DNA of 64,000 nt from Loktanella sp. GTDB lineage: Bacteria > Pseudomonadota > Alphaproteobacteria > Rhodobacterales > Rhodobacteraceae. Positions 5,897-15,939 of this stretch are shown piece after piece. The position numbers were made by a program, and so were the translations under genes. Under the pieces are notes generated by a model. It was not told the DNA's origin. It made no database searches and saw nothing but the letters and a program-made list of their open reading frames with translations. Each line of letters starts with the position of its first letter. Within the stretch, counting starts at the first letter, position 1. Location: positions 1-64,000 of the forward strand of contig JAFPBO010000008.1 in assembly GCA_017390475.1 (NCBI GenBank). Direction: 5' to 3'.

Positions 5897-7158
5897 GCTG
5901 AAACCCGTTCAATATTGGCACCAACGGCGCGCAACTTTTCCTCGACATGTTCATAACCGCGATCAAGGTGATAAACCCGGCTGACCAGCGTTTCCCCCTC
6001 TGCCGCCAACCCAGCCAGAATCAACGACACCGACGCGCGCAGATCAGTCGCCATCACCGGCGCGCCTTTCAGACGGTCAACGCCCGTCACGGTGGCGGTG
6101 CCGCCCTGCACATCAATCCGCGCACCCATGCGGATCAGTTCGGGGGCATGCATGAACCGGTTTTCAAAAATCTTTTCTTCCAGCACCGATGTGCCATCTG
6201 CGGTGCAAAGCATCGCCATCATCTGCGCTTGCAGATCGGTGGGGAAACCGGGGAACACGGCGGTGGTGACATCAACCGCGCGCGCCCGGCTGCCGTTGCG
6301 TTTCACCAGAATACCGTTCGGCGTCTCCGACACATCGACACCCGCCTCGGCCAGTTTTTCGGCAAAACTAGCGACCAGATCCATCCGGCCCCCCAGACAT
6401 TCCACCTCGCCCCCGGCAAAGACCGGGGCCAGCATATAGGTGCCCAGTTCGATCCGGTCGGTCACGACGGGATGGGTCGCAGCCCCCAGACGGTCTACGC
6501 CATCAATGGTGATCGTGCTGGTGCCTTCGCCCTCGATCTGCGCACCCATGCGGCGCAGACATTGGGCAAGATCGACAATCTCCGGCTCGCGCGCGGCGTT
6601 TTCGATGATCGTGGTGCCTTTGGCCAAAGTCGCTGCCATCAGCACATTCTCGGTCGCGCCGACGCTAGGGAACCGCAGCGCCACCCGCGCGCCTTTCAGC
6701 CCACCTTTGGCAGTGGCATGCAGATAGCCGTCTTTCAGCTCAATCGTCGCACCCATCGTTTCCAAGGCAGTCACGTGAATATCCATCGGACGCGCGCCAA
6801 TCGCACAGCCACCGGGCAGGGACACAATCGCCTGATGATGCCGCGCCAGCAGTGGCCCCAGCACCAGATTGGACGCACGCATCTTGCGCACGATCTCATA
6901 ATCCGCGCGGGTGGATGTCATCGCATGCGACGACAGCACCTGCACCTTGCCATCCTGCATGGACGTGACTTCCACGCCCAAAGATTGCAGCAGCGCCGTC
7001 ATCGTCTTGATATCCGACAGGCGCGGCGCATTGGTCAGGGTCAGCGGTTCCTCGGACAGCAATGTCGCGGGCATCAACGCAAGGGCGGCATTCTTGGCCC
7101 CGGCAATCTGAATCTTCCCATGCAGCTTGGTGCCGCCTTTGACCAAAATTGAATCCAT
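5893..7158 (-). CDS. murA: UDP-N-acetylglucosamine 1-carboxyvinyltransferase
   Basis: MurA transfers enolpyruvate from PEP to UDP-GlcNAc, the first committed step of peptidoglycan synthesis in the cytoplasm. The 421-residue protein has the N-terminal [19 protein letters not shown] with the substrate-binding Lys-Asn, the loop GGCAIGARP carrying the catalytic cysteine that fosfomycin attacks, [11 protein letters not shown], and [17 protein letters not shown]. The start at 7158 lies six nucleotides after the stop of a 49-residue ORF, and AGGAAG lies upstream. It is the second gene of the minus-strand housekeeping run. Confidence 0.98.
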
Positions 7159-7164
7159 GCTGCT

Positions 7165-7314
7165 TTATTCTTCCTGTTTGCTGCCCGCTGCCGCGGCCTT
7201 TGCGCGCGCCTGTGCCTTGCGTTTGGCCATATTGGCCTTGAGCGCGGCTTTCAACCGCTCTTCGCGGGCCGTGGCGGGCTTGGCGGGTTGCGGCTTATCG
7301 TTTTTGTTGTCCAT
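7165..7314 (-). CDS. Small Lys/Ala-rich conserved-type protein upstream of murA
   Basis: This 49-residue ORF begins MDNKNDKPQPAKPATARE and ends AGSKQEE. It is strongly basic, rich in Ala and Lys, and predicted to be one helix after a Pro-rich start; it has no membrane segment. Codon use is like its neighbours (third-position GC), and its stop lies six nucleotides before the murA start, which supports a real gene in the murA operon. No clear ribosome-binding site precedes the ATG. I do not recognise a named family, and the function is unknown. Confidence 0.65.
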   Translation of the reverse strand: MDNKNDKPQPAKPATAREERLKAALKANMAKRKAQARAKAAAAGSKQEE

Positions 7315-7401
7315 GCCGACTGTGTTAGCAAACGGCGCAAAAAGCGTCCAGAGAGGGCTTGCACCAGCCTGCGATTGCCGCTAATCCCCCGCCTCACGGA
7401 T

Positions 7402-7476
7402 GCTGTGGTAGCTCAGTGGCAGAGCACACCCTTGGTAAGGGTGAGGTCGAGAGTTCAATCCTCTCTCACAGCACCA
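7402..7476 (+). tRNA. tRNA-Thr (anticodon GGT)
   Basis: This is a complete cloverleaf on the plus strand. The acceptor stem GCTGTGG pairs with TCACAGC, the D arm is AGCTCAGTGGCAGAGC, the anticodon loop is TTGGTAA with anticodon GGT, and the T arm contains GAGTTCAATCC. CCA is encoded. It lies between the divergent murA operon and the convergent PfpI-family gene. Confidence 0.97.
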
Positions 7477-7573
7477 TCCTAAGTCCTTGATATTGCTTTG
7501 CGCGCAGATCCTTTGTGGGATCGTCGGCATTGGCATGACTGGGGCAGCCAGATCACCGCCCCGATCAGATCGT

Positions 7574-8248
7574 TCAGAGCAGGGCCAGCAGCTTTTGCGC
7601 TGCCTCTTCCGATGATGCCGGGTTCTGACCGGTCACCAGCTTGCCGTCCACCACGACGAAAGACGCCCAGTCGGGGCCTTTTTCATAGCGGCCGCCATTG
7701 GCCTTCAGCATGTCCTCGACCAGGAATGGTACGATGTCGGTCAGGCCGACGCCGTCTTCTTCGGTGTTGGTAAATCCGGTGACGGTCTTGTCTGCGACGA
7801 TGGATTTGCCATCCGTACCCTTGACATGTTTGAACACGCCGGGCGCATGGCAGACCGCGCCGACCGGGCGGTCATGCGCGGCAAAGGCTTCGATCAGCGC
7901 GATGCTGTCACGGTCTTCGGCCAGGTCCCACAAGGGGCCATGTCCGCCGGGATAGAACACCGCGTCAAAATCAACGGCAGAAACAGCAGACAGCAAAACG
8001 GTCTGTGCCAGTGCATCCTGCGCCGACGGGTCAGTCTTGAACCGTTTGGTCGCTGCGGTCTGGCTGTCATCGCCATCGCTGGCAGGATCAAGCGGCGGCT
8101 GCCCCCCTTTGGGAGAGGCCAGGGTGATTTCCGCCCCTGCGTCTTTGAAGACGTAATAGGGCGCGGCGAATTCTTCCAGCCAAAAACCGGTCTTCTTGCC
8201 GGTCTCACCCAGCTGATCATGTGATGTGAGTATCATCAGTATTTTCAT
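7574..8248 (-). CDS. DJ-1/PfpI family protein (type 1 glutamine amidotransferase fold, Hsp31-like)
   Basis: This 224-residue protein has the DJ-1/PfpI fold. GAVCHAPGVF holds the nucleophilic cysteine in the elbow, and FYPGGHGPLWDL holds the glycine-rich loop. An early acidic residue in GFWLEEF is in the place of the Glu that tunes the cysteine in the Hsp31/YajL group. Relatives act as glutathione-independent glyoxalases or holding chaperones; which applies cannot be told from sequence. The start at 8248 follows GGAAGATAACACT. The acetyltransferase gene lies 30 nt upstream, so the two are probably an operon. Confidence 0.9.
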   Translation of the reverse strand: MKILMILTSHDQLGETGKKTGFWLEEFAAPYYVFKDAGAEITLASPKGGQPPLDPASDGDDSQTAATKRFKTDPSAQDALAQTVLLSAVSAVDFDAVFYPGGHGPLWDLAEDRDSIALIEAFAAHDRPVGAVCHAPGVFKHVKGTDGKSIVADKTVTGFTNTEEDGVGLTDIVPFLVEDMLKANGGRYEKGPDWASFVVVDGKLVTGQNPASSEEAAQKLLALL

Positions 8249-8278
8249 AGTGTTATCTTCCTTTATGAATGTGGGTGG

Positions 8279-8767
8279 TCAGGTTGACAACCGGTGGCAC
8301 CGGTCGATGTCGATATGGGCCTCGCAATCGGCCCCATGCTGGATGATCTGGCCGCCTGCCGATTGCACCAGATGGCGGATGCCGGTGTTTTCGCTGGCAA
8401 AATACAGATCGGCCGTCTGCACACCGATCCGGGCGGCGGCGGCCAGCCCGTCGATAAACAGCGCCTTGCCAAAGCCGCGTCCCTGATAAGCATCCTCGAC
8501 AGAAATGCCGATCTCGGCATGCCGGGCGGCAGCGGCAAAGATTTCCAGCACGCCCACGACACGGCCATCGGCCTTGATCGCCAGCACGATATCGGGGCCA
8601 GCGCTGTCGGCGATCAGGCGGACCGACCGGTCCGGCAGGGCTGCCATGAACCGCCGCTGTCGCGACGCCCGCCCCAGCCGCAGGTAATGCGCCTGCAGCG
8701 TTTGCCGCCAATCGGCCAAGGTGCCGGTCAGCACGGCAGGGTTGGGTGGCAAGGCGACATGCGCCAT
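8279..8767 (-). CDS. GNAT family N-acetyltransferase
   Basis: This 162-residue protein carries the acetyl-CoA-binding loop QGRGFGKALF of GNAT motif A (Q/R-x-x-G-x-G/A), preceded by the strand EIGISVEDAY and followed by ASENTGIRHLVQSAGG, the usual motif B region. The substrate is unknown. The start at 8767 has GGAAAGGATACCCG before it. It is probably the first gene of a two-gene unit with the PfpI-like gene. A PhaR-box-like sequence lies about 45 nt upstream (8810-8825). Confidence 0.85.
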   Translation of the reverse strand: MAHVALPPNPAVLTGTLADWRQTLQAHYLRLGRASRQRRFMAALPDRSVRLIADSAGPDIVLAIKADGRVVGVLEIFAAAARHAEIGISVEDAYQGRGFGKALFIDGLAAAARIGVQTADLYFASENTGIRHLVQSAGGQIIQHGADCEAHIDIDRCHRLST

Positions 8768-9006
8768 CGGGTATCCTTTCCAGCGACGGTTTCTCTGATC
8801 TTTATGTAGTGCCGCATTGCAGCATTTTGAGAGGGGGGAACGCAGCGTCAGTCCCGACCGGCGGATCAGGGTGAGGCTCTCTGGCCTGCGCTGTTATCGG
8901 CTAGCAATGGGCTGATATTGTCTGAACCGGGATGTCGGATCATCGTGTTTGCAAATGGCGGGGCAGAGGTGCTGCCGCTGCGATCTTTCAGAAGGATGAT
9001 GGGATC

Positions 9007-9987
9007 ATGTCGGGTTTCGGTCTTGGGAATGACAATTGGGGCTTGCCGCGGCTTTGTCGCATGATGGCTGTGGCAATGGGCCTGACGGTGCTTGCACCGG
9101 CGGCCTGGGCGGTGAACCCCGCCTGCGGTGATGCGATTCGTATCGCGCCGGGCGATACTTTGCTGCGGGTGGCCAGCTATTGCGATACCACCATCCCTGC
9201 CTTGCTGGCGGCCAATCCCGACATCAGCCATCCCAACCGCATCCATGTCGGGCAGCTGATCTACATGCCGGGGCGCAATGCGGTCACACCCGTCTATCGC
9301 CCGCCAGTGGCGGCGGCACCACCCCCCGCGACCTCATGGGGGCGCGACGCGTTTGCGCACTGTGGCGCAACGGTGCAGGTCCGCCGTGGCGATACATTCG
9401 GTGGCATTGCCCGGCGCTGTGGCGTCAGCGTGGCGCAGCTGCGGGCCGAAAATCCGCAACTGCGTAACCCCAACCTGATCGTTGCGGGCATGACCTTGCG
9501 GGTGCCATCGTCTCTGGCACCGCAGCCGTCGCGGCCCGTTCCGGCCCCGGTTGCGCAAAACCTGCGGGTGATCGGCACCATCACCGGCGAGGGCGTGACC
9601 TGTCAGGCGCTGCGCGGCGATGACGGCAGGCTGTATACGATTGCAGGTACCGCCACCCGGCCGCTGCGCCCCGGTGACCGGGTCGAGGTAACCGGCACGG
9701 CTGCTGCCACCTCGGTCTGCCAGCAGGGGGTCGCGATCAGCGCCAGCCAGATCCTGTTGCTTGATCCTGTCGTGCGTCCGGCCATCGACGTCACCGGCAC
9801 GATCACCCGCGAAGGTGTGACCTGCACGGCTTTGCGTGGGGATGACGGGCGGCTTTACACGCTGGCCGGTCAGACGGCGGGTTTTCAGCCGGGCGACCGG
9901 GTCCGGGTCACCGGCGATCAGGCGCAGACATCATTCTGCCAGCAGGGCACAACGGTGAACCTGCTGTCGATCCGATCGGCCTGGTAA
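9007..9987 (+). CDS. Secreted LysM protein with duplicated C-terminal domain
   Basis: This 326-residue protein has a hydrophobic leader ending near LTVLAPAAWAVN, so it is predicted to be exported. Two LysM domains follow, the first with GDTLLRVASYCDTTIPALL and the second with GDTFGGIARRCGVSVAQL; LysM binds peptidoglycan glycans. After a Pro-rich linker come two copies of a roughly 60-residue unit starting GTITGEGVTC and GTITREGVTC. Each has RGDDGRLYT, PGDRV and a second cysteine in SVCQQG or SFCQQG; these look like small beta-barrel repeats, each perhaps with one disulfide. I chose the ATG at 9007, with AGAAGG upstream. No catalytic domain is seen. Confidence 0.8.
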   Translation: MSGFGLGNDNWGLPRLCRMMAVAMGLTVLAPAAWAVNPACGDAIRIAPGDTLLRVASYCDTTIPALLAANPDISHPNRIHVGQLIYMPGRNAVTPVYRPPVAAAPPPATSWGRDAFAHCGATVQVRRGDTFGGIARRCGVSVAQLRAENPQLRNPNLIVAGMTLRVPSSLAPQPSRPVPAPVAQNLRVIGTITGEGVTCQALRGDDGRLYTIAGTATRPLRPGDRVEVTGTAAATSVCQQGVAISASQILLLDPVVRPAIDVTGTITREGVTCTALRGDDGRLYTLAGQTAGFQPGDRVRVTGDQAQTSFCQQGTTVNLLSIRSAW

Positions 9988-9999
9988 TGGGTTTGTCGG

Positions 10000-11370
10000 T
10001 CAGAATTCCGATCTGATCGACAGCCCCGCCGACAGCGCATCGCGGGTAAAGCGGCTGACATTGCTGTCGGTGGTCGTGGCGGTGATCGTCAGCAGCGGGG
10101 TGAAACCGGCATAGCTGACCTGCGGAAACCCGATGTTGAGCGTGGAGAACAGGCTTGTATCCTGCCGCCCGCCCGCCACCGGCAACAACAGCTGGTAATC
10201 GGGATAATCCGCCCAGGTCACGCCTGCCGCCATCGCCAATGTCACCGGCCCGACCGGATCAGCGATGGCATAGCTGAACTGCGCTGTCCAATCGGTCATG
10301 GTATAATTGAGGTTATCCCCGTCGCTGCTGCCATAGATCAAAGTGGCGCGGACAAGGTCCTCATTGGGCAGCAGGTAAGCCAGCGAGCTGCCGAGTGTGG
10401 TGCGGGTGACCTGCCCGATACGGGTGATGTCGTATTCTGTCCAACTGCGGCCCAGCGACAGGCTGAGTTCGGCCTTGTCACCCAGCGGCAGGCGGCGGTC
10501 GATGTCGACCCGCCAGATATCGTATTTCTGCACCTCGGTCTGTAGGGTGACGCTGTCAAGATCGCGGTAATCGACCATCGTATAGGCCAGTTGCCCGGAG
10601 ATGCTGCCGTTGCCCAGCAGCCGGTCATGGCGCAGGCTCAGCTCTGCGACATTGGTCGCCAGCGCCTCGTCGGGGACATCGACATCATCGGTGATCCGCA
10701 CCCGGGCTGCCTGATATTGCGCGCCGATCAGCGTGCGGCTGGTCGCGTTTTCCTGCAAACGATAGGTCGCGCCCAAGGTCAATGATCCGCGCCAGCCTGC
10801 CAGTGCCAGCGCATCATCAGACAACGTGCCGGTGGGATTGCCGGGGGCAGAGGCCACGTTATTTGCCGCCCCGCCATTCACATTTGACGACGGCGCCAAA
10901 GTGGCCGCGATATCAAAGATCCAAGGGTTCTGCTGTTGCAGAAGACGGGCATCGGCGCGGGTCTGGGCGCGGTCTTCGTCGCTGCCCGCCACGATCAGGG
11001 CGCGGCGCAGCCAGAATGTGCCCAGTGTGAACCGCTGTTCATTGGCTGCGGCCAGTGCGGTCAGGCGGGCGGCCTCGTATCGCTGGGCATTGGTCTGCGA
11101 CAGCGCATAGGCCTGCGCCCCGGCAATGCGACCCGCGCGTGGATCGCCCTGTTGCGGTGCCGCAGCGGCGACAATGGCCAAAGCGTCGCGATCATCGGGG
11201 GCCTGCGCCAGGATCGCGCGGGCGATATCCAACGCGAGGCCGGTTTCGCCCGCAAACAATGCCTCTGCCGCGAGGCTGCGCGCCTCGCTCAGCGGCAGAT
11301 CAAGGCTGGTCTGGGCACTGGCCGCGCTGCCCAGAAGGCATGCCGCCATCGCAATAATCTTGCTATTCAT
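10000..11370 (-). CDS. Slam-like surface lipoprotein assembly modifier (DUF560-type outer-membrane protein)
   Basis: This 456-residue protein has a signal peptide ending ACLLGSAASAQ, then about 120 residues of Ala-rich helical pairs resembling TPR repeats (EALFAGETGLALDIARAIL, FTLGTFWLRRALI). A long beta-rich C-terminal barrel follows and ends in the outer-membrane-type Phe (IRSEF). This is the architecture of Slam, which moves lipoproteins such as TbpB to the outer face of the outer membrane in Neisseria. Its ATG overlaps the stop of the TbpB-like lipoprotein gene as ATGA, which strongly supports the assignment. A generic TPR outer-membrane protein is the alternative. Confidence 0.75.
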   Translation of the reverse strand: MNSKIIAMAACLLGSAASAQTSLDLPLSEARSLAAEALFAGETGLALDIARAILAQAPDDRDALAIVAAAAPQQGDPRAGRIAGAQAYALSQTNAQRYEAARLTALAAANEQRFTLGTFWLRRALIVAGSDEDRAQTRADARLLQQQNPWIFDIAATLAPSSNVNGGAANNVASAPGNPTGTLSDDALALAGWRGSLTLGATYRLQENATSRTLIGAQYQAARVRITDDVDVPDEALATNVAELSLRHDRLLGNGSISGQLAYTMVDYRDLDSVTLQTEVQKYDIWRVDIDRRLPLGDKAELSLSLGRSWTEYDITRIGQVTRTTLGSSLAYLLPNEDLVRATLIYGSSDGDNLNYTMTDWTAQFSYAIADPVGPVTLAMAAGVTWADYPDYQLLLPVAGGRQDTSLFSTLNIGFPQVSYAGFTPLLTITATTTDSNVSRFTRDALSAGLSIRSEF

Positions 11371-12263
11371 AAGTCGTTTAAAGGCTCGCAGATCGATGGC
11401 ACGCCTGCTGTGCCGCAACGGCCAAGCACGAAAATACCGGTTTCATCCTCAATATCAGTGCCCGGAACGAAATCACCGTCCAGTCGAATCGCGCCTGCAA
11501 CAGAGGATGCATTCACACCGCCAAATGTTCCGCCATAGCTGCCGATACCATCTTCGTTGCGATCCTCTGCCACGCCGGTAAATGCACCATTCGGCTGAAT
11601 TTCGGTTGGGATCAAGAATACGGTATCCAGCAAAATGCCGGTCCCGTCCTGATAAACACGGTTATAGATCGCTCCGTTCACCTTATTTGTCGCAAAGCTG
11701 GCGTTGAGAAAAACATCGCCTGAAATGCGTCCGGATCGAAATGGCAGAATGTCAGCATTGACACCGGGGGCCGGCGCGGTGCCTTGACGGGTCGACAGGT
11801 TGATCAGGCCAGCATAGGTGCCGGCATAGGTCACAAGACCTTCCGTTGGTGCGGTGTAGGTCCCTGTTTGTTCATAGGTGGCCCCGCCGAAAAACTTGGT
11901 AAACTGGCCGCCATCGGCAACAACAGCGGCCCGCGCCGATCCGTCAGCAGATTGTGCGGCAAATCCGGTAAAGAACCGGTCCAACCGGTCATCCTGCGTG
12001 GTAAAGGCCAGATAGCCGGGCAGGTCATAGGCGGCATTGCGGGCATAGACCGCCTCTACCACACCGGCATCCAGCGTAATCGAGACGGTCAGACTGCCCG
12101 ATCCGTCAGCCAGACTGGCGGCGCTCAGGTTATTGGCGATTGGTGCGGGCACGGTGATCCCTGCCATCGGTGGCGCCGGTTCCGGCGGCGCATCTGCTTC
12201 GCCGACAGCATCGCATGCGGCAACAAAGGTCAGTGACATCATGGCATAGAAAAATCTGATCAC
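11367..12263 (-). CDS. TbpB-like surface lipoprotein (candidate Slam cargo)
   Basis: This 298-residue protein begins with a lipoprotein signal peptide whose lipobox is V-A-A-C, with the lipidated Cys at residue 17. The rest is rich in Gly, Thr and Asn, with a C-terminal region GAIYNR, then GTFGGVNASSVAGAI. This resembles the final eight-strand barrel of transferrin-binding protein B (usual pattern GxFYGPxAxExGG). A C-terminal Cys pair (GRCGTAGVPSICEP) could form a disulfide. Residue +2 is Asp, an inner-membrane retention signal in E. coli, but that rule may not hold here. What it binds is unknown; transferrin is unlikely in a free-living marine-type bacterium. Confidence 0.7.
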   Translation of the reverse strand: MIRFFYAMMSLTFVAACDAVGEADAPPEPAPPMAGITVPAPIANNLSAASLADGSGSLTVSITLDAGVVEAVYARNAAYDLPGYLAFTTQDDRLDRFFTGFAAQSADGSARAAVVADGGQFTKFFGGATYEQTGTYTAPTEGLVTYAGTYAGLINLSTRQGTAPAPGVNADILPFRSGRISGDVFLNASFATNKVNGAIYNRVYQDGTGILLDTVFLIPTEIQPNGAFTGVAEDRNEDGIGSYGGTFGGVNASSVAGAIRLDGDFVPGTDIEDETGIFVLGRCGTAGVPSICEPLNDL

Positions 12264-12432
12264 AACATCCGCCCCCCTTACCAGCTACCAGCCCAACCAT
12301 TCCGACACAACCTTGCGCTGTCAACGGCGGGGCGGGGGTCCGGCTTCTTTGATCTGGCGCTATGGAGGTTTTGCCACACCGTCGCTTTGCCTATAGTGCG
12401 GCAAGACTCATCTCAGCGAACCGGAGACCGCA

Positions 12433-13338
12433 ATGCCCATCACCCCCGACCAGCAGGCCGAAATCGACATCTTGCGCGCCAATCCGCAACCCACTCTGCG
12501 CGCTGTAGCGCCGGGGATGGAGGCGCATCTTTACAAGGCCTATGATGTGCTGGATCACGGATTTATCCGGGTGATCGATTATATGGGCGACGATGCCGCC
12601 ATCTGTCAGGCGGCGCGTGTGTCTTACGGCAAAGGCACCAAATCGGTGCAGAATGACGAAGGGCTGATCCGCTATCTGATGCGGCACTGGCATTCCACCC
12701 CGTTCGAGATGTGCGAGATCAAGCTGCATGTGAAACTGCCGGTCTTTGTCGCCCGGCAATGGATCCGGCACCGGACCGCGAATGTGAACGAATATTCTGC
12801 GCGCTATTCGATCCTTGACCGGGAGTTTTATATTCCGGCCCCCGAACATCTCGCCGCGCAATCGGTGATCAATAATCAGGGCCGGGGTGAGGCCTTGACG
12901 GGCGAAGAGGCGGCGCGGGTGCTGGCCTATCTGAAAGACGATGCGGCGCGGTGCTATGATCATTACGCCGAGATGATTTCCGATGACGGCCAACAGGGTC
13001 TGGCGCGCGAATTGGCGCGGATGAACCTGCCGGCAAATATCTATACGCAATGGTATTGGAAAGTCGATCTGCACAATCTGTTCCATTTCCTGCGGCTACG
13101 CGCGGATGCCCATGCGCAATATGAAATCCGGGTTTATGCGGAGGAGATCTGCAAGGTTGTGGCCGATTGGGTGCCTGCGGCTTATGGTGCGTTCGAGGAT
13201 TACCGGATGGGCGGGGCCACGCTGTCGGGCAAGGCGATAGACTGCGTGCGGATGATGCTCAGGGGGGAAGAGGTGACGCAGGAGACGAGCGGCATGAGCA
13301 AGGGGGAATGGCGGGAGTTTATGGGGGTGATTGGGTGA
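12433..13338 (+). CDS. thyX: Flavin-dependent thymidylate synthase
   Basis: ThyX makes dTMP from dUMP using methylenetetrahydrofolate and FAD/NADPH. The 301-residue protein contains the ThyX signature as [15 protein letters not shown] (usual RHRxxSxNExSxRY, with Ala in place of the first Ser) and a C-terminal [10 protein letters not shown] region. The start at 12433 follows AACCGGAGACCGCA, with GGAG as ribosome-binding site. A DUF3800 gene starts about 37 nt after the stop but looks unrelated in base composition. Confidence 0.97.
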
Positions 13339-13375
13339 AAGGTAGTTTAAGTGGCGTTTTCGTTGAGAACACGGA

Positions 13376-14182
13376 GTGAAGTTTAATATCTACATTGACG
13401 AAAGCGGCGAGGCGGGCATCGGTAAAGTACGCGTCGGCTCATCTGTAGGTGCGTCTCCGTACTTTGTCATGGCCGCGGTAGTTTGTCAGCCAACAGCGGA
13501 GGTTCTTGCAAAAAACGCCCTTTCTGACGCAAAAGATAAAATTGGCAAGAAGAGCTGGAAACACGCAACTGAACTTGGCCATACTCAAAAAGTATTTTTA
13601 GCCCGTGAACTGAATAGACTTCCAGTGCGATTTTTTGCAGTGATCTCAAGGAAGCAGACCCTTGGAAGTTATAAATCAGAAATCAAAGGAAATGCTCACA
13701 AGTTTTACAATAAGTGTGCCCAGTATTTGCTTGAAAGCATCTGTTCCTACCTAGCGCCGCATTTGACATCCGAAAAAGACCTAAATATTTATTTTGAGAA
13801 AATGAATCATGACTACGATGCTATGCGGCGATTTCTTATGAAAGTGAGAGATAAGCCAGTTTACTCACACTCTCTATCCCTTAGGAGCTTAAATCCATTT
13901 GGAATTTCGACTTTAAAAAAAGGTGAGAATGATATGCTGGAGATTGCTGATTTTGTTGCCCACGCGGTCTATCAGTGTGCAAACCTAACTGACTCAAATT
14001 TTGGAATTCCAGAGCCAAGATATTTTTTGGAAATTTCGTCCAGATTTGCCGGAGATGAACGCAACTGCCCAAATGGGGTTGGGCTGAAGTTTATTCACGA
14101 CTTGAAAAGCATGAAGTTTGAGCCTGAAATTGAGACCATGTTCCGGAGTGTAAAGGTTACACCACCGGTGAAGTTAAGGTAG
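13376..14182 (+). CDS. DUF3800 domain-containing protein
   Basis: This 268-residue protein begins KFNIYIDESGEAG. The Asp-Glu pair of YIDESG is the first acidic motif of DUF3800, a family with an RNase H-like core, and EIADFVAHAVYQ supplies the later conserved Asp. DUF3800 proteins are often found in variable regions with defence or mobile genes, but no partner gene lies beside this one. The DNA is clearly AT-richer than its neighbours, with AAA/TTT runs and A/T third positions, so recent transfer is likely. The start is a GTG at 13376 without a well-spaced ribosome-binding site, so the 5' end is uncertain. Confidence 0.8.
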   Translation: MKFNIYIDESGEAGIGKVRVGSSVGASPYFVMAAVVCQPTAEVLAKNALSDAKDKIGKKSWKHATELGHTQKVFLARELNRLPVRFFAVISRKQTLGSYKSEIKGNAHKFYNKCAQYLLESICSYLAPHLTSEKDLNIYFEKMNHDYDAMRRFLMKVRDKPVYSHSLSLRSLNPFGISTLKKGENDMLEIADFVAHAVYQCANLTDSNFGIPEPRYFLEISSRFAGDERNCPNGVGLKFIHDLKSMKFEPEIETMFRSVKVTPPVKLR

Positions 14183-14266
14183 ATGTTTGCGCCTGGTCTG
14201 GAGGTCGGTGTTCTTCCCGCCCTTCCGCAATATTTTCACTACTGATTGCGCCTATCGTGGCACTGG

Positions 14267-14288
14267 CGGGGTGAACCCCGCCCTACGG
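14267..14288 (+). repeat. REP-like inverted repeat, type B, copy 1
   Basis: The unit CGGGGTGAACCCCG followed by CCCTACGG forms a short hairpin (GGCGGGG, loop TGAA, CCCCGCC). The same unit occurs at 14627-14648 in the same orientation, inside the neighbouring RAYT gene. Confidence 0.75.
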
Positions 14289-14292
14289 CGAT

Positions 14293-14308
14293 CTTCCCCG
14301 CGGGGAAG
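14293..14308. repeat. REP palindrome, type A, copy 1
   Basis: This is the perfect palindrome CTTCCCCGCGGGGAAG followed by GTT. An identical sequence occurs at 14364-14379 and again at 63739-63756. The position just 3' of a RAYT transposase gene fits a REP element mobilised by that enzyme. Confidence 0.8.
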
Positions 14309-14363
14309 GTTTGGTGGATTGTGGTGCGCAGGATGCGCACCCGACGTTGCGGAAAATTGTGAT

Positions 14364-14379
14364 CTTCCCCGCGGGGAAG
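14364..14379. repeat. REP palindrome, type A, copy 2
   Basis: This second perfect copy of CTTCCCCGCGGGGAAG, again preceded by GAT and followed by GGTT, lies directly at the 3' end of the RAYT gene. With copy 1 it makes a direct pair about 71 nt apart, the arrangement of a REP doublet. Confidence 0.8.
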
Positions 14380-14383
14380 GTTT

Positions 14384-14911
14384 TCATTGCGCACCGCCCC
14401 GGTTCCGGAATGATGTGTAGGGCCAATCGGCGGGGTCATCGACAAGGCCGTGTTTGACGGGGTTGATCCGGCAATATTCCATATGGGCGGCGAAATCCCG
14501 GTCGTCGCGGATGTGATGTTCCCAGAAACGTTTCTGCCAGATCGGTGCTTCGGCGCGTCGGTCGGGGTTTTCCCCGACCCGGATACGGCCAGCGACGACG
14601 CCATGGGGGTTGTGAGGGTGGGGTGTCGGGGTGAACCCCGACCTACGGATGATGCGGGAAAAGCGGCCTTTGATGGCGCCCATGCGGGTGGAATAATCGG
14701 AATCGCCGTCGGGCAGGGTCCAGATGCAATGCATGTGATCCGGCAAGACGACCCAGGCGTTGACGGTAAACGGGCGCTCGGCCCGGGTTTGGGTGACAGC
14801 CTGACGCAGCGCCGCCACCTCGCGCACAAGCAAGGCAGCGGAACGGTCCGCCAGATTGACGGTAAATAATATGGTTGCGCCGGGGCGCTGGGGGCGGTGA
14901 TAACGGGGCAT
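14384..14911 (-). CDS. REP-associated tyrosine transposase (RAYT, Y1/IS200-like)
   Basis: This 175-residue protein has the single-stranded-DNA transposase signatures of the RAYT group: the HUH-type metal motif in VVLPDHMHCIWTLP, GAIKGRFSR, WQKRFWEHHIRDD, and the catalytic tyrosine in EYCRINPVKHGLV. RAYTs cut and join REP hairpins and are usually single-copy domesticated genes. I chose the ATG at 14911 (MPRYHRPQRPG) by family likeness; another ATG lies six codons earlier. Its 3' side carries two REP palindromes. About 30 residues between the N-terminal half and the WQKRFWEH motif are encoded partly by a type B repeat, which keeps the frame open. Confidence 0.9.
   Translation of the reverse strand: MPRYHRPQRPGATILFTVNLADRSAALLVREVAALRQAVTQTRAERPFTVNAWVVLPDHMHCIWTLPDGDSDYSTRMGAIKGRFSRIIRRSGFTPTPHPHNPHGVVAGRIRVGENPDRRAEAPIWQKRFWEHHIRDDRDFAAHMEYCRINPVKHGLVDDPADWPYTSFRNRGGAQ
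14627..14648 (+). repeat. REP-like inverted repeat, type B, copy 2 (inside the RAYT gene)
   Basis: The unit CGGGGTGAACCCCG followed by ACCTACGG is the same as at 14267-14288 apart from one base. Here it lies within the coding sequence of the RAYT gene, read in frame on the minus strand as part of SGFTPTPHPHNPHG. Confidence 0.75.
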
Positions 14912-14966
14912 AGCGCAATATCGCGCCACAGGATGAAGATCCGGTTAATCGCAAGGACGTTGCTCT

Positions 14967-15287
14967 ATGATCCTCTATGGCCTGCCGACCTGTTCGGATT
15001 GCAAGGCGGCGCTGAAGGCGCTTGCGGATCAGGGCGTGACGTTTCGTGATATCCGCGCTGATCCGCTGAGTGCCGCAGAATGGGCACCGTTGATTGCGGA
15101 ATTTGGTGATAATCTGATCGACCGCAAATCGCAGACCTATCGCAACCTCAACGCCTGGCTGCGGGAATCGGAGGCGGAGGCGCAGTTGGAGGCGCAGCCC
15201 GCGCTTATGGCCCGTCCGGTGATCACGGACGGGACGCGCTGGACGCTGGGTTGGGGCGCCGAGGCGCAGGCGGTCTGGCTGGGTTAA
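14967..15287 (+). CDS. ArsC/Spx family reductase-like protein (copy 1)
   Basis: This 106-residue thioredoxin-fold protein has PTCSDCKAAL near the N-terminus, so it keeps two cysteines in a C-x2-C arrangement, and late ALMARPVITDG, the ArsC/YffB-type LMKRPV segment. The usual single-Cys ArsC motif is Cys followed by Arg; here the second Cys and Lys take those places, so arsenate reduction is uncertain. Its stop overlaps the cold-shock gene stop on the other strand (TTAA). A second family member lies at 15610-15939. Confidence 0.85.
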   Translation: MILYGLPTCSDCKAALKALADQGVTFRDIRADPLSAAEWAPLIAEFGDNLIDRKSQTYRNLNAWLRESEAEAQLEAQPALMARPVITDGTRWTLGWGAEAQAVWLG

Positions 15288-15493
15288 TCGGCTTTCGCCA
15301 GATTGCCGGCCATCTTGCGGCCATCGCGGCCTTCGATCAGGTCGAAGCTGACCTTTTGGTTATCGGCAAGCCCGGTCAGCCCGGATTGTTCCACGGCGGA
15401 AATGTGGACGAAAATATCGTTGCCGCCGTCATCGGGCGCGATAAAACCGAACCCTTTGGTGGTGTTGAACCATTTCACTGTGCCGCTTGGCAT
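15284..15493 (-). CDS. Cold-shock domain protein
   Basis: This 69-residue protein consists of a single cold-shock domain with RNP1 KGFGFI and RNP2 DIFVHISA, beginning MPSGTVKWFN. It binds single-stranded RNA and DNA and acts as an RNA chaperone. The start at 15493 has GGAAGGGAGTAAAGACA upstream. About 115 nt of untranslated sequence separate it from the divergent ArsC-like gene, room for a regulatory 5' leader, though no specific element was recognised. Confidence 0.95.
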   Translation of the reverse strand: MPSGTVKWFNTTKGFGFIAPDDGGNDIFVHISAVEQSGLTGLADNQKVSFDLIEGRDGRKMAGNLAKAD

Positions 15494-15609
15494 TGTCTTT
15501 ACTCCCTTCCTTGGCCCATTACAGACCTATTGCTCTTCTAACCTTGTCGCTTTTATGCAAAAGGCAATTGACATGTCGTCGCAGCAGATCGGTGAAGGAG
15601 AGAGACAGA

Positions 15610-15939
15610 ATGCGATTTTTCGGGCTGAAAACCTGTGACACCTGCCGCAAGGCGCTGGCGGCGCTCAAGGCCAAGGGTATCACGCCAGAGGTGGTGGATG
15701 TTCGTGCCGACGGGCTGAGCGTCGATGACATCACCGCGATTGTGCAGGCCTTTGGGGATACCGCGATCAATCGGGCCTCGACCACATGGCGCGGGTTGTC
15801 GGAAGAGGCGCGGGGGCAGGATACGGCTGCATTACTGGCGACCTATCCGACGCTGATGAAACGCCCGGTGATTGCTGGCGATGATGGCTGGACCATCGGC
15901 TGGAAAGCGGTTGTGCAGGCGAAATACCTTGGCAGTTGA
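15610..15939 (+). CDS. ArsC/Spx family reductase-like protein (copy 2)
   Basis: This 109-residue protein begins MRFFGLKTCDTCRKALAAL, giving the C-x2-C-R form of the YffB/Spx/ArsC group, and keeps TLMKRPVIAGDDGWTIGW near the C-terminus. It shares length and layout with copy 1 at 14967 but differs in sequence, so the two are old paralogues. The start at 15610 follows GGAGAGAGACAGA. Physiological electron donor and substrate are unknown. Confidence 0.88.
   Translation: MRFFGLKTCDTCRKALAALKAKGITPEVVDVRADGLSVDDITAIVQAFGDTAINRASTTWRGLSEEARGQDTAALLATYPTLMKRPVIAGDDGWTIGWKAVVQAKYLGS

Follow-up and report, generated by a model that had tools for sequence, protein, structure and literature searches.

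A predicted Slam-type exporter gene and its overlapping lipoprotein gene in Loktanella sp., and their pairing across the Rhodobacteraceae

Two overlapping genes at positions 10000 to 12263

The first 64,000 nucleotides of contig JAFPBO010000008.1 of Loktanella sp. (assembly GCA_017390475.1; termed the window herein) contain two overlapping minus-strand genes that are predicted to encode a lipoprotein and the outer-membrane protein that most probably exports it, as in type 11 secretion systems (T11SS), whose exporters are also called Slam proteins. The lipoprotein gene (11367..12263; minus strand), termed the cargo gene herein, starts with GTG at 12263 and encodes a protein of 298 amino acids. 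The exporter gene (10000..11370; minus strand), coding for a Slam/T11SS-type outer-membrane protein, starts with ATG and encodes 456 amino acids. In the sequence, the cargo stop codon and the exporter start codon overlap in an ATGA (11367..11370; minus strand), suggesting that the two genes might be translationally coupled. A preliminary description of this DNA had reported a lipobox lipoprotein and an overlapping barrel gene ending in Phe, and both genes are present at these coordinates on the minus strand.

The cargo carries the signal sequence MIRFFYAMMSLTFVAAC, with an SPII-type (signal peptidase II) lipobox V-A-A-C at residues 14 to 17. Cys17 is kept in every row of two alignments, the window protein being counted in both: A2 (25/25) and A5 (62/62), the latter comprising the window and 61 of the 77 cargos from the named loci described below (15 with non-ATG or doubtful starts and one split gene, L102, were left out). 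A strict lipobox pattern is passed by 71 of 76 named cargos, with start codons chosen by script. The predicted structure (predicted local distance difference test [pLDDT], 89.2; predicted template modeling score [pTM], 0.84) consists of a low-confidence linker up to about residue 45, a 7-strand handle domain (residues 46 to 132), and a C-terminal 8-strand barrel of the TbpB/fHbp type (residues 143 to 282), followed by Cys283 and Cys292 near the C terminus, which may form a disulfide. Its top matches among solved structures were fHbp, the NHBA C-domain, and hemophilin/HphA, with TbpB ranking lower. The TbpB-like C terminus that had been proposed was recovered as an 8-strand barrel in the model, but the likeness is a general one, with fHbp, NHBA, and hemophilin being closer. 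TbpB proper has two lobes, each with a handle and a barrel, whereas the window cargo has a single handle and a single barrel. Handle and barrel are conserved to about the same degree (mean majority fractions of 0.57 and 0.56, respectively), suggesting for the handle that it probably has one shared job across the lineage. In locus L102 (L102:241-1310), the cargo is split into two in-line open reading frames, which may represent an interrupted gene or an assembly error.

The exporter begins with a Sec-type signal (judged by eye), followed by helices and then by a barrel. Its predicted structure (pLDDT, 91.7; pTM, 0.83) has 7 TPR-like helices (residues 27 to 147) and 14 long barrel strands (residues 150 to 454); the short strands 172 to 175 and 178 to 182 were taken as loop, and DSSP gives 16 strand elements if both are counted. 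The terminal Phe456 is invariant in alignments of 30 and 51 rows (the larger one, A6, is a thinned set of 50 of the 79 named exporters plus the window). When compared with PDB sequences, the exporter profile matched TPR chains. No Slam protein was recognised among the best 60 of the 67 sequence rows or in the 50 rows listed for structural matches (Foldseek and VIA-align). In VIA-align, the best barrel matches were OmpG and CymA, both of which have 14 strands. The predicted models thus contain the folds that the preliminary description had named as the ones to look for, an N-terminal TPR domain and a 14-strand barrel in the exporter and a TbpB-type 8-strand barrel in the cargo.

Pairing, co-divergence, and gene neighbourhood across the family

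A first related-locus scan with the window exporter sequence alone recovered no relatives. Single-sequence searches of 149 family genomes found the exporter in 82 and the lipoprotein in 33, and profile searches (E value of 1e-3) of 295 genomes found them in 179 and 112, respectively. For the family sample, we kept the 142 strongest exporter places (137 genomes); weaker and fragmentary rows were left out, including G032, where a cargo match adjoins an exporter fragment. At 102 of the 142 places, a cargo match lies upstream on the same strand within 1.3 kb. The other 40 comprised 26 with a cargo at an E value of <1e-6 once the HMMER filters were off, 1 with a weak match at a contig edge, 2 that were themselves at a contig edge, and 11 without a match. 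A wider re-reading covered 140 of the 142 places (all except the window and G184), of which 136 had 1 kb of upstream sequence and were testable. A cargo was paired with the exporter in 122/136 at an E value of 1e-3, 119/136 at 1e-6, and 99/136 at 1e-10, the count dropping because the cargo is very divergent. After correction of three technical misses (G253 and G050, where an over-extended exporter frame broke the distance rule, and G113, matched only with filters off), 125 of the 136 exporters have a cargo directly upstream. A second set, the named loci, was obtained with a seven-row exporter subset as the query: of 148 confirmed places, the 80 with the highest exporter similarity were retained (79 loci); 77 of the 79 contain the cargo, and the remaining two are cut at a contig edge. 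The two sets share some genomes, and their counts are not independent. Because the pair recurs through the family, its occurrence in the window is not a matter of chance.

Several further loci were observed. At L301 (G079:C65), the cargo position upstream of the exporter is taken by a short lipoprotein of different sequence that resembles the cargo profile weakly (E value of 0.046). L091 (JAHVJD010000002.1) is titled Nocardioides marinus and has a T11SS locus of the Rhodobacteraceae type, so it is probably mislabelled or contaminated. The Loktanella genome itself contains a second T11SS pair on another contig (C46; L186:10080-12549), in which the gene for a TbpB_B_D lipoprotein (42.1 bits) precedes that for a SlipAM exporter (77.9 bits); the gene order is the same as in the window pair, but the C46 proteins have clear Pfam matches. 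To look beyond the family, 142 genomes from across the class (two of them from the same family as the window) were searched with a narrow three-row profile, which distant relatives could escape; at an E value of 1e-20, the genome of the window was the one match.

Cargo and exporter also diverge together. In 135 distinct loci that include ThyX, pairwise distances correlated between cargo and exporter (r = 0.62), and hardly between exporter and ThyX (0.14) or cargo and ThyX (0.05); the partial correlation of cargo and exporter was 0.618, compared to at most 0.066 in 500 permutations. We count this co-divergence, which neither protein has with ThyX, as support and not as proof because the distances of both proteins are near saturation (medians of ∼1.6).

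In the window, the pair is flanked upstream by the divergent thyX gene (12433..13338; plus strand), which encodes a flavin-dependent thymidylate synthase (PF02511, 190.5 bits), and a LysM/DUF5818 gene (8932-9987) converges on the exporter gene from the other side. In the intergenic region between the cargo gene and thyX (12264..12432), a TTGACA precedes the start of the cargo gene by 61 bases. Its counterpart in relatives, a TTGACTTT box, was found in 90 of 171 distinct cargo upstream stretches at a median position of −68, suggesting that these elements might function as promoters. Two genes beside thyX (13376-14929), one of the DUF3800 family and one resembling a Y1 transposase below threshold, may mark an insertion, as neither belongs to the neighbour clusters listed as conserved in relatives. 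Two adjoining genes of the ArsC family are found at 14967-15287 and 15487-15939 (38.3 and 32.4 bits, respectively; cut-off, 24).

In the family sample, ThyX or ThyA lies upstream in 111/124 loci and GloA downstream in 111/130. ThyX occupies the divergent position in 93 of the 124 loci and ThyA in 18, never both, so that unrelated enzymes catalysing the same reaction occur at the same position. A DUF1194 gene is near the exporter in 84/130 loci within 2.5 kb and in 81/127 within 3.9 kb, irrespective of whether an E value of 1e-3 or 1e-10 was used. When the neighbouring genes of the window and of the 79 named loci were clustered, GloA was present in 71 of 80, DUF1194 in 50, ThyX in 47, and ThyA in 22 (uncorrected for contig ends). 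Neither GloA nor DUF1194 was found near the window pair (window positions 6000 to 14400), and the two DUF1194 matches of this genome are both on other contigs. In 43 to 46 of the 80 loci, MbnB/TglH/ChrH, DUF2063, and DoxX family genes are grouped ∼4 to 6 kb upstream of the exporter between the gene for threonyl-tRNA synthetase (ThrRS) and ArsC (e.g., L091:4237-5091 and L081:4842-6246), an arrangement that looks like a copper-type cluster for ribosomally synthesized and post-translationally modified peptides. The window has no member in these three neighbour clusters.

A probable Slam unit and the alternatives to it

We consider the locus to be best explained as a type 11 secretion (Slam) unit made up of two genes, and we regard this explanation as highly probable. 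The earlier proposal of a Slam-like exporter with a lipoprotein cargo in an alphaproteobacterium is upheld by the predicted folds, by profile matches of weak to moderate strength, by the conserved adjacency of the two genes, and by their co-divergence. The assignment is well supported by homology, and translocation would follow the Slam scheme. The lipoprotein would leave the cytoplasm by the Sec route, receive its lipid at Cys17, and be delivered to the outer membrane, with the exporter's TPR domain meeting it in the periplasm. The exporter would recognise the 8-strand barrel of the cargo, and its own 14-strand barrel would pass the lipoprotein to the outer face, where the handle domain would be exposed on the surface and displayed to the medium. 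The handle on display probably serves a single purpose throughout the lineage, which in this species is probably not His-based heme binding.

Several observations weigh against this explanation. Profile matches of the window proteins are weak and fall below the curated cut-offs, although those of relatives are better. The exporter reaches 16.2 bits with Pfam SlipAM (cut-off, 22) and slightly more, 17.0 bits, with ShlB (cut-off, 22.7), both being sub-threshold; the cargo reaches 25.9 bits (E value of 1e-5) with NCBIfam slam_lipo (cut-off, 80) and has no Pfam match at an E value of 1. Since the curated SlipAM cut-off is not reached, we file the exporter as Slam-like according to its fold, its pairing, and its relatives, 21 of the 30 aligned exporter sequences matching SlipAM at an E value of 0.01. 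Eleven of the 136 testable exporters have no recognisable upstream cargo, some outside the conserved locus and without marker genes nearby and others inside it, and the strict E value of 1e-10 leaves only 99 of the 136 paired. Thymidylate synthase is about as constant as the cargo, and GloA nearly so; adjacency may thus reflect plain synteny and by itself proves little. The near-saturated distances weaken the co-divergence. Finally, the seven experimentally proven T11SS exporters all belong to the animal-associated cluster 1 of the published classification (PMC12282271).

Other identities of the exporter were weighed against this background. It could be an exopolysaccharide-type TPR-porin similar to BcsC/PelB, whose barrels have 16 strands, with the lipoprotein as an unrelated partner, as the top three Foldseek rows from the PDB are BcsC (twice) and PelBC and the model has 16 DSSP strand elements when the two short ones are counted. 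However, these rows have low template modeling (TM) scores of 0.31 to 0.41 with root mean square deviations of 13 to 18, VIA-align prefers OmpG and CymA, the partner gene encodes a lipoprotein with a TbpB/fHbp barrel, and a partial scan of 18 window genes (1 to 23 kb) and 19 neighbour-cluster representatives recognised no polysaccharide gene. We therefore regard this identity as very improbable. A two-partner secretion pore of the TpsB/ShlB type with an unusual partner is more improbable still: ShlB is the top, sub-threshold Pfam match of the window exporter, but the window is alone in this match among the 30 aligned sequences, and its N-terminal domain is TPR-like, whereas TpsB proteins have POTRA domains and 16 strands.

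Different cargo assignments concern the lipoprotein itself. The preliminary description had suggested heme, a metal complex, or another nutrient as the ligand, and the overall architecture of the cargo is indeed that of hemophilin/HphA, in which two His (HphA) or one His (hemophilin) bind heme (PMC8560813). In relatives, position 97 is mostly His (56/62 rows of A5 and 17/25 of A2), for which reason heme is not dismissed for the whole cargo family. The window cargo has Phe97 and not a single His; the mature protein contains a single Met (Met33, within the linker) and three Cys, including the lipid anchor Cys17. TonB receptors were matched at three places in the genome, all on contigs other than that of the pair (C42, C56, and C8), and the partial scan described above recognised neither a TonB-receptor gene nor a heme gene. 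In 184 sequences upstream of the cargo, no enrichment was observed for any of the iron-box patterns tried, which is weak evidence as the patterns were simple and were compared with base-shuffled controls. Because of the missing His and the lack of a TonB-receptor or heme gene among the scanned neighbours, the window cargo is unlikely, judging from its sequence, to be a hemophore like its best-known relatives, and heme is disfavoured as its ligand; a Tyr-based heme or metal site may exist. A Slam pair with a heme- or metal-binding nutrient cargo is thus an unlikely but not negligible alternative. Grossman et al. (2025; PMC12282271) raised DUF1194 proteins as possible cargo or partners, given their co-occurrence in 102 of 145 loci. 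Against DUF1194, in place of the barrel lipoprotein, being the real cargo, the lipoprotein is commoner (125/136, or 99/136 at 1e-10, compared to 84/130 for DUF1194 within 2.5 kb) and co-diverges with the exporter, and in the window the pair occurs without DUF1194 nearby. We give this possibility little credence.

Comparison with published T11SS and Slam systems

Among known systems, the Slam unit proposed for the window compares most closely with cluster 3 of the T11SS, which comes almost entirely from Roseobacteraceae and Rhodobacteraceae (PMC12282271). Of its 145 loci, 102 contain DUF1194, 89 a glyoxalase, and 77 a thymidylate synthase, but only 8 contain TbpB-barrel domains, and the paper puts cargo at 0.21 per exporter; three reasons were offered for this dearth of cargo, including sub-threshold similarity. 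A syntenic locus of 11 strains contains ThyX, GloA, and DUF1194 and, in 10 of them, an SPII lipoprotein with an eight-strand barrel. Ruegeria pomeroyi is one of the species for which that paper gives the locus. This locus shares with the window the T11SS protein, the SPII lipoprotein with its C-terminal 8-strand barrel, ThyX, and related bacteria, and the cargo lengths are comparable (282 to 375 amino acids and 298 in the window). It differs in that the window has no GloA or DUF1194 beside the pair and an exporter under the SlipAM cut-off. By synteny and taxonomy, we assign the window pair to this cluster 3 locus. The setting is thus already published in that T11SS loci like this one are described for these two families, and the window pair is, on good support, an ordinary member of a described system. 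An experimental test of a Rhodobacteraceae Slam/T11SS was not found in the literature titles and abstract openings covered (subscription papers were outside this scope).

A barrel cargo is rare in the published cluster 3 and present in most relatives sampled here, and our pairing counts favour sub-threshold similarity as the reason for the dearth. Going further, the "cargo-poor" marine cluster might not be cargo-poor at all: nearly every exporter would have a dedicated adjacent lipoprotein that was overlooked below the family cut-offs, and this lipoprotein would be a surface protein with a single function, other than that of a classical hemophore, untied to a neighbouring TonB receptor and with a handle as conserved as its barrel, with DUF1194 as a neighbour and no substitute cargo. 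This broader reading was at first held to be evenly balanced, and we now place it slightly below that because the cargo is no more constant as a neighbour than thymidylate synthase.

The resemblance to the Neisseria Slam1/Slam2 systems (TbpB, fHbp, and HpuA) lies in the exporter of TPR domain plus 14 strands and the lipobox cargo with a TbpB-like barrel, and cargo and exporter are adjacent in the window as for Slam2 and HpuA; the window differs by sub-threshold sequence similarity, a single-lobe cargo, and no TonB receptor recognised alongside (PMC5449769). Compared to hemophilin/HphA with HsmA, the window cargo has a lipobox and lacks a heme His, and no TonB-receptor or heme gene was recognised among the scanned neighbours (PMC8560813). 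To these systems, the window and its relatives add a widespread pairing below the cut-offs, a pair kept without GloA and DUF1194, and a case against His-based heme binding here. An exporter-cargo pair that is widely kept in a common marine family offers a pathogen-free setting for three questions: whether distant exporters of the T11SS share one mode of action, by what features they recognise a cargo with a barrel too divergent for the family cut-offs, and which role such a surface lipoprotein has in settings where the transferrin or hemoglobin of a host is not an obvious prize.
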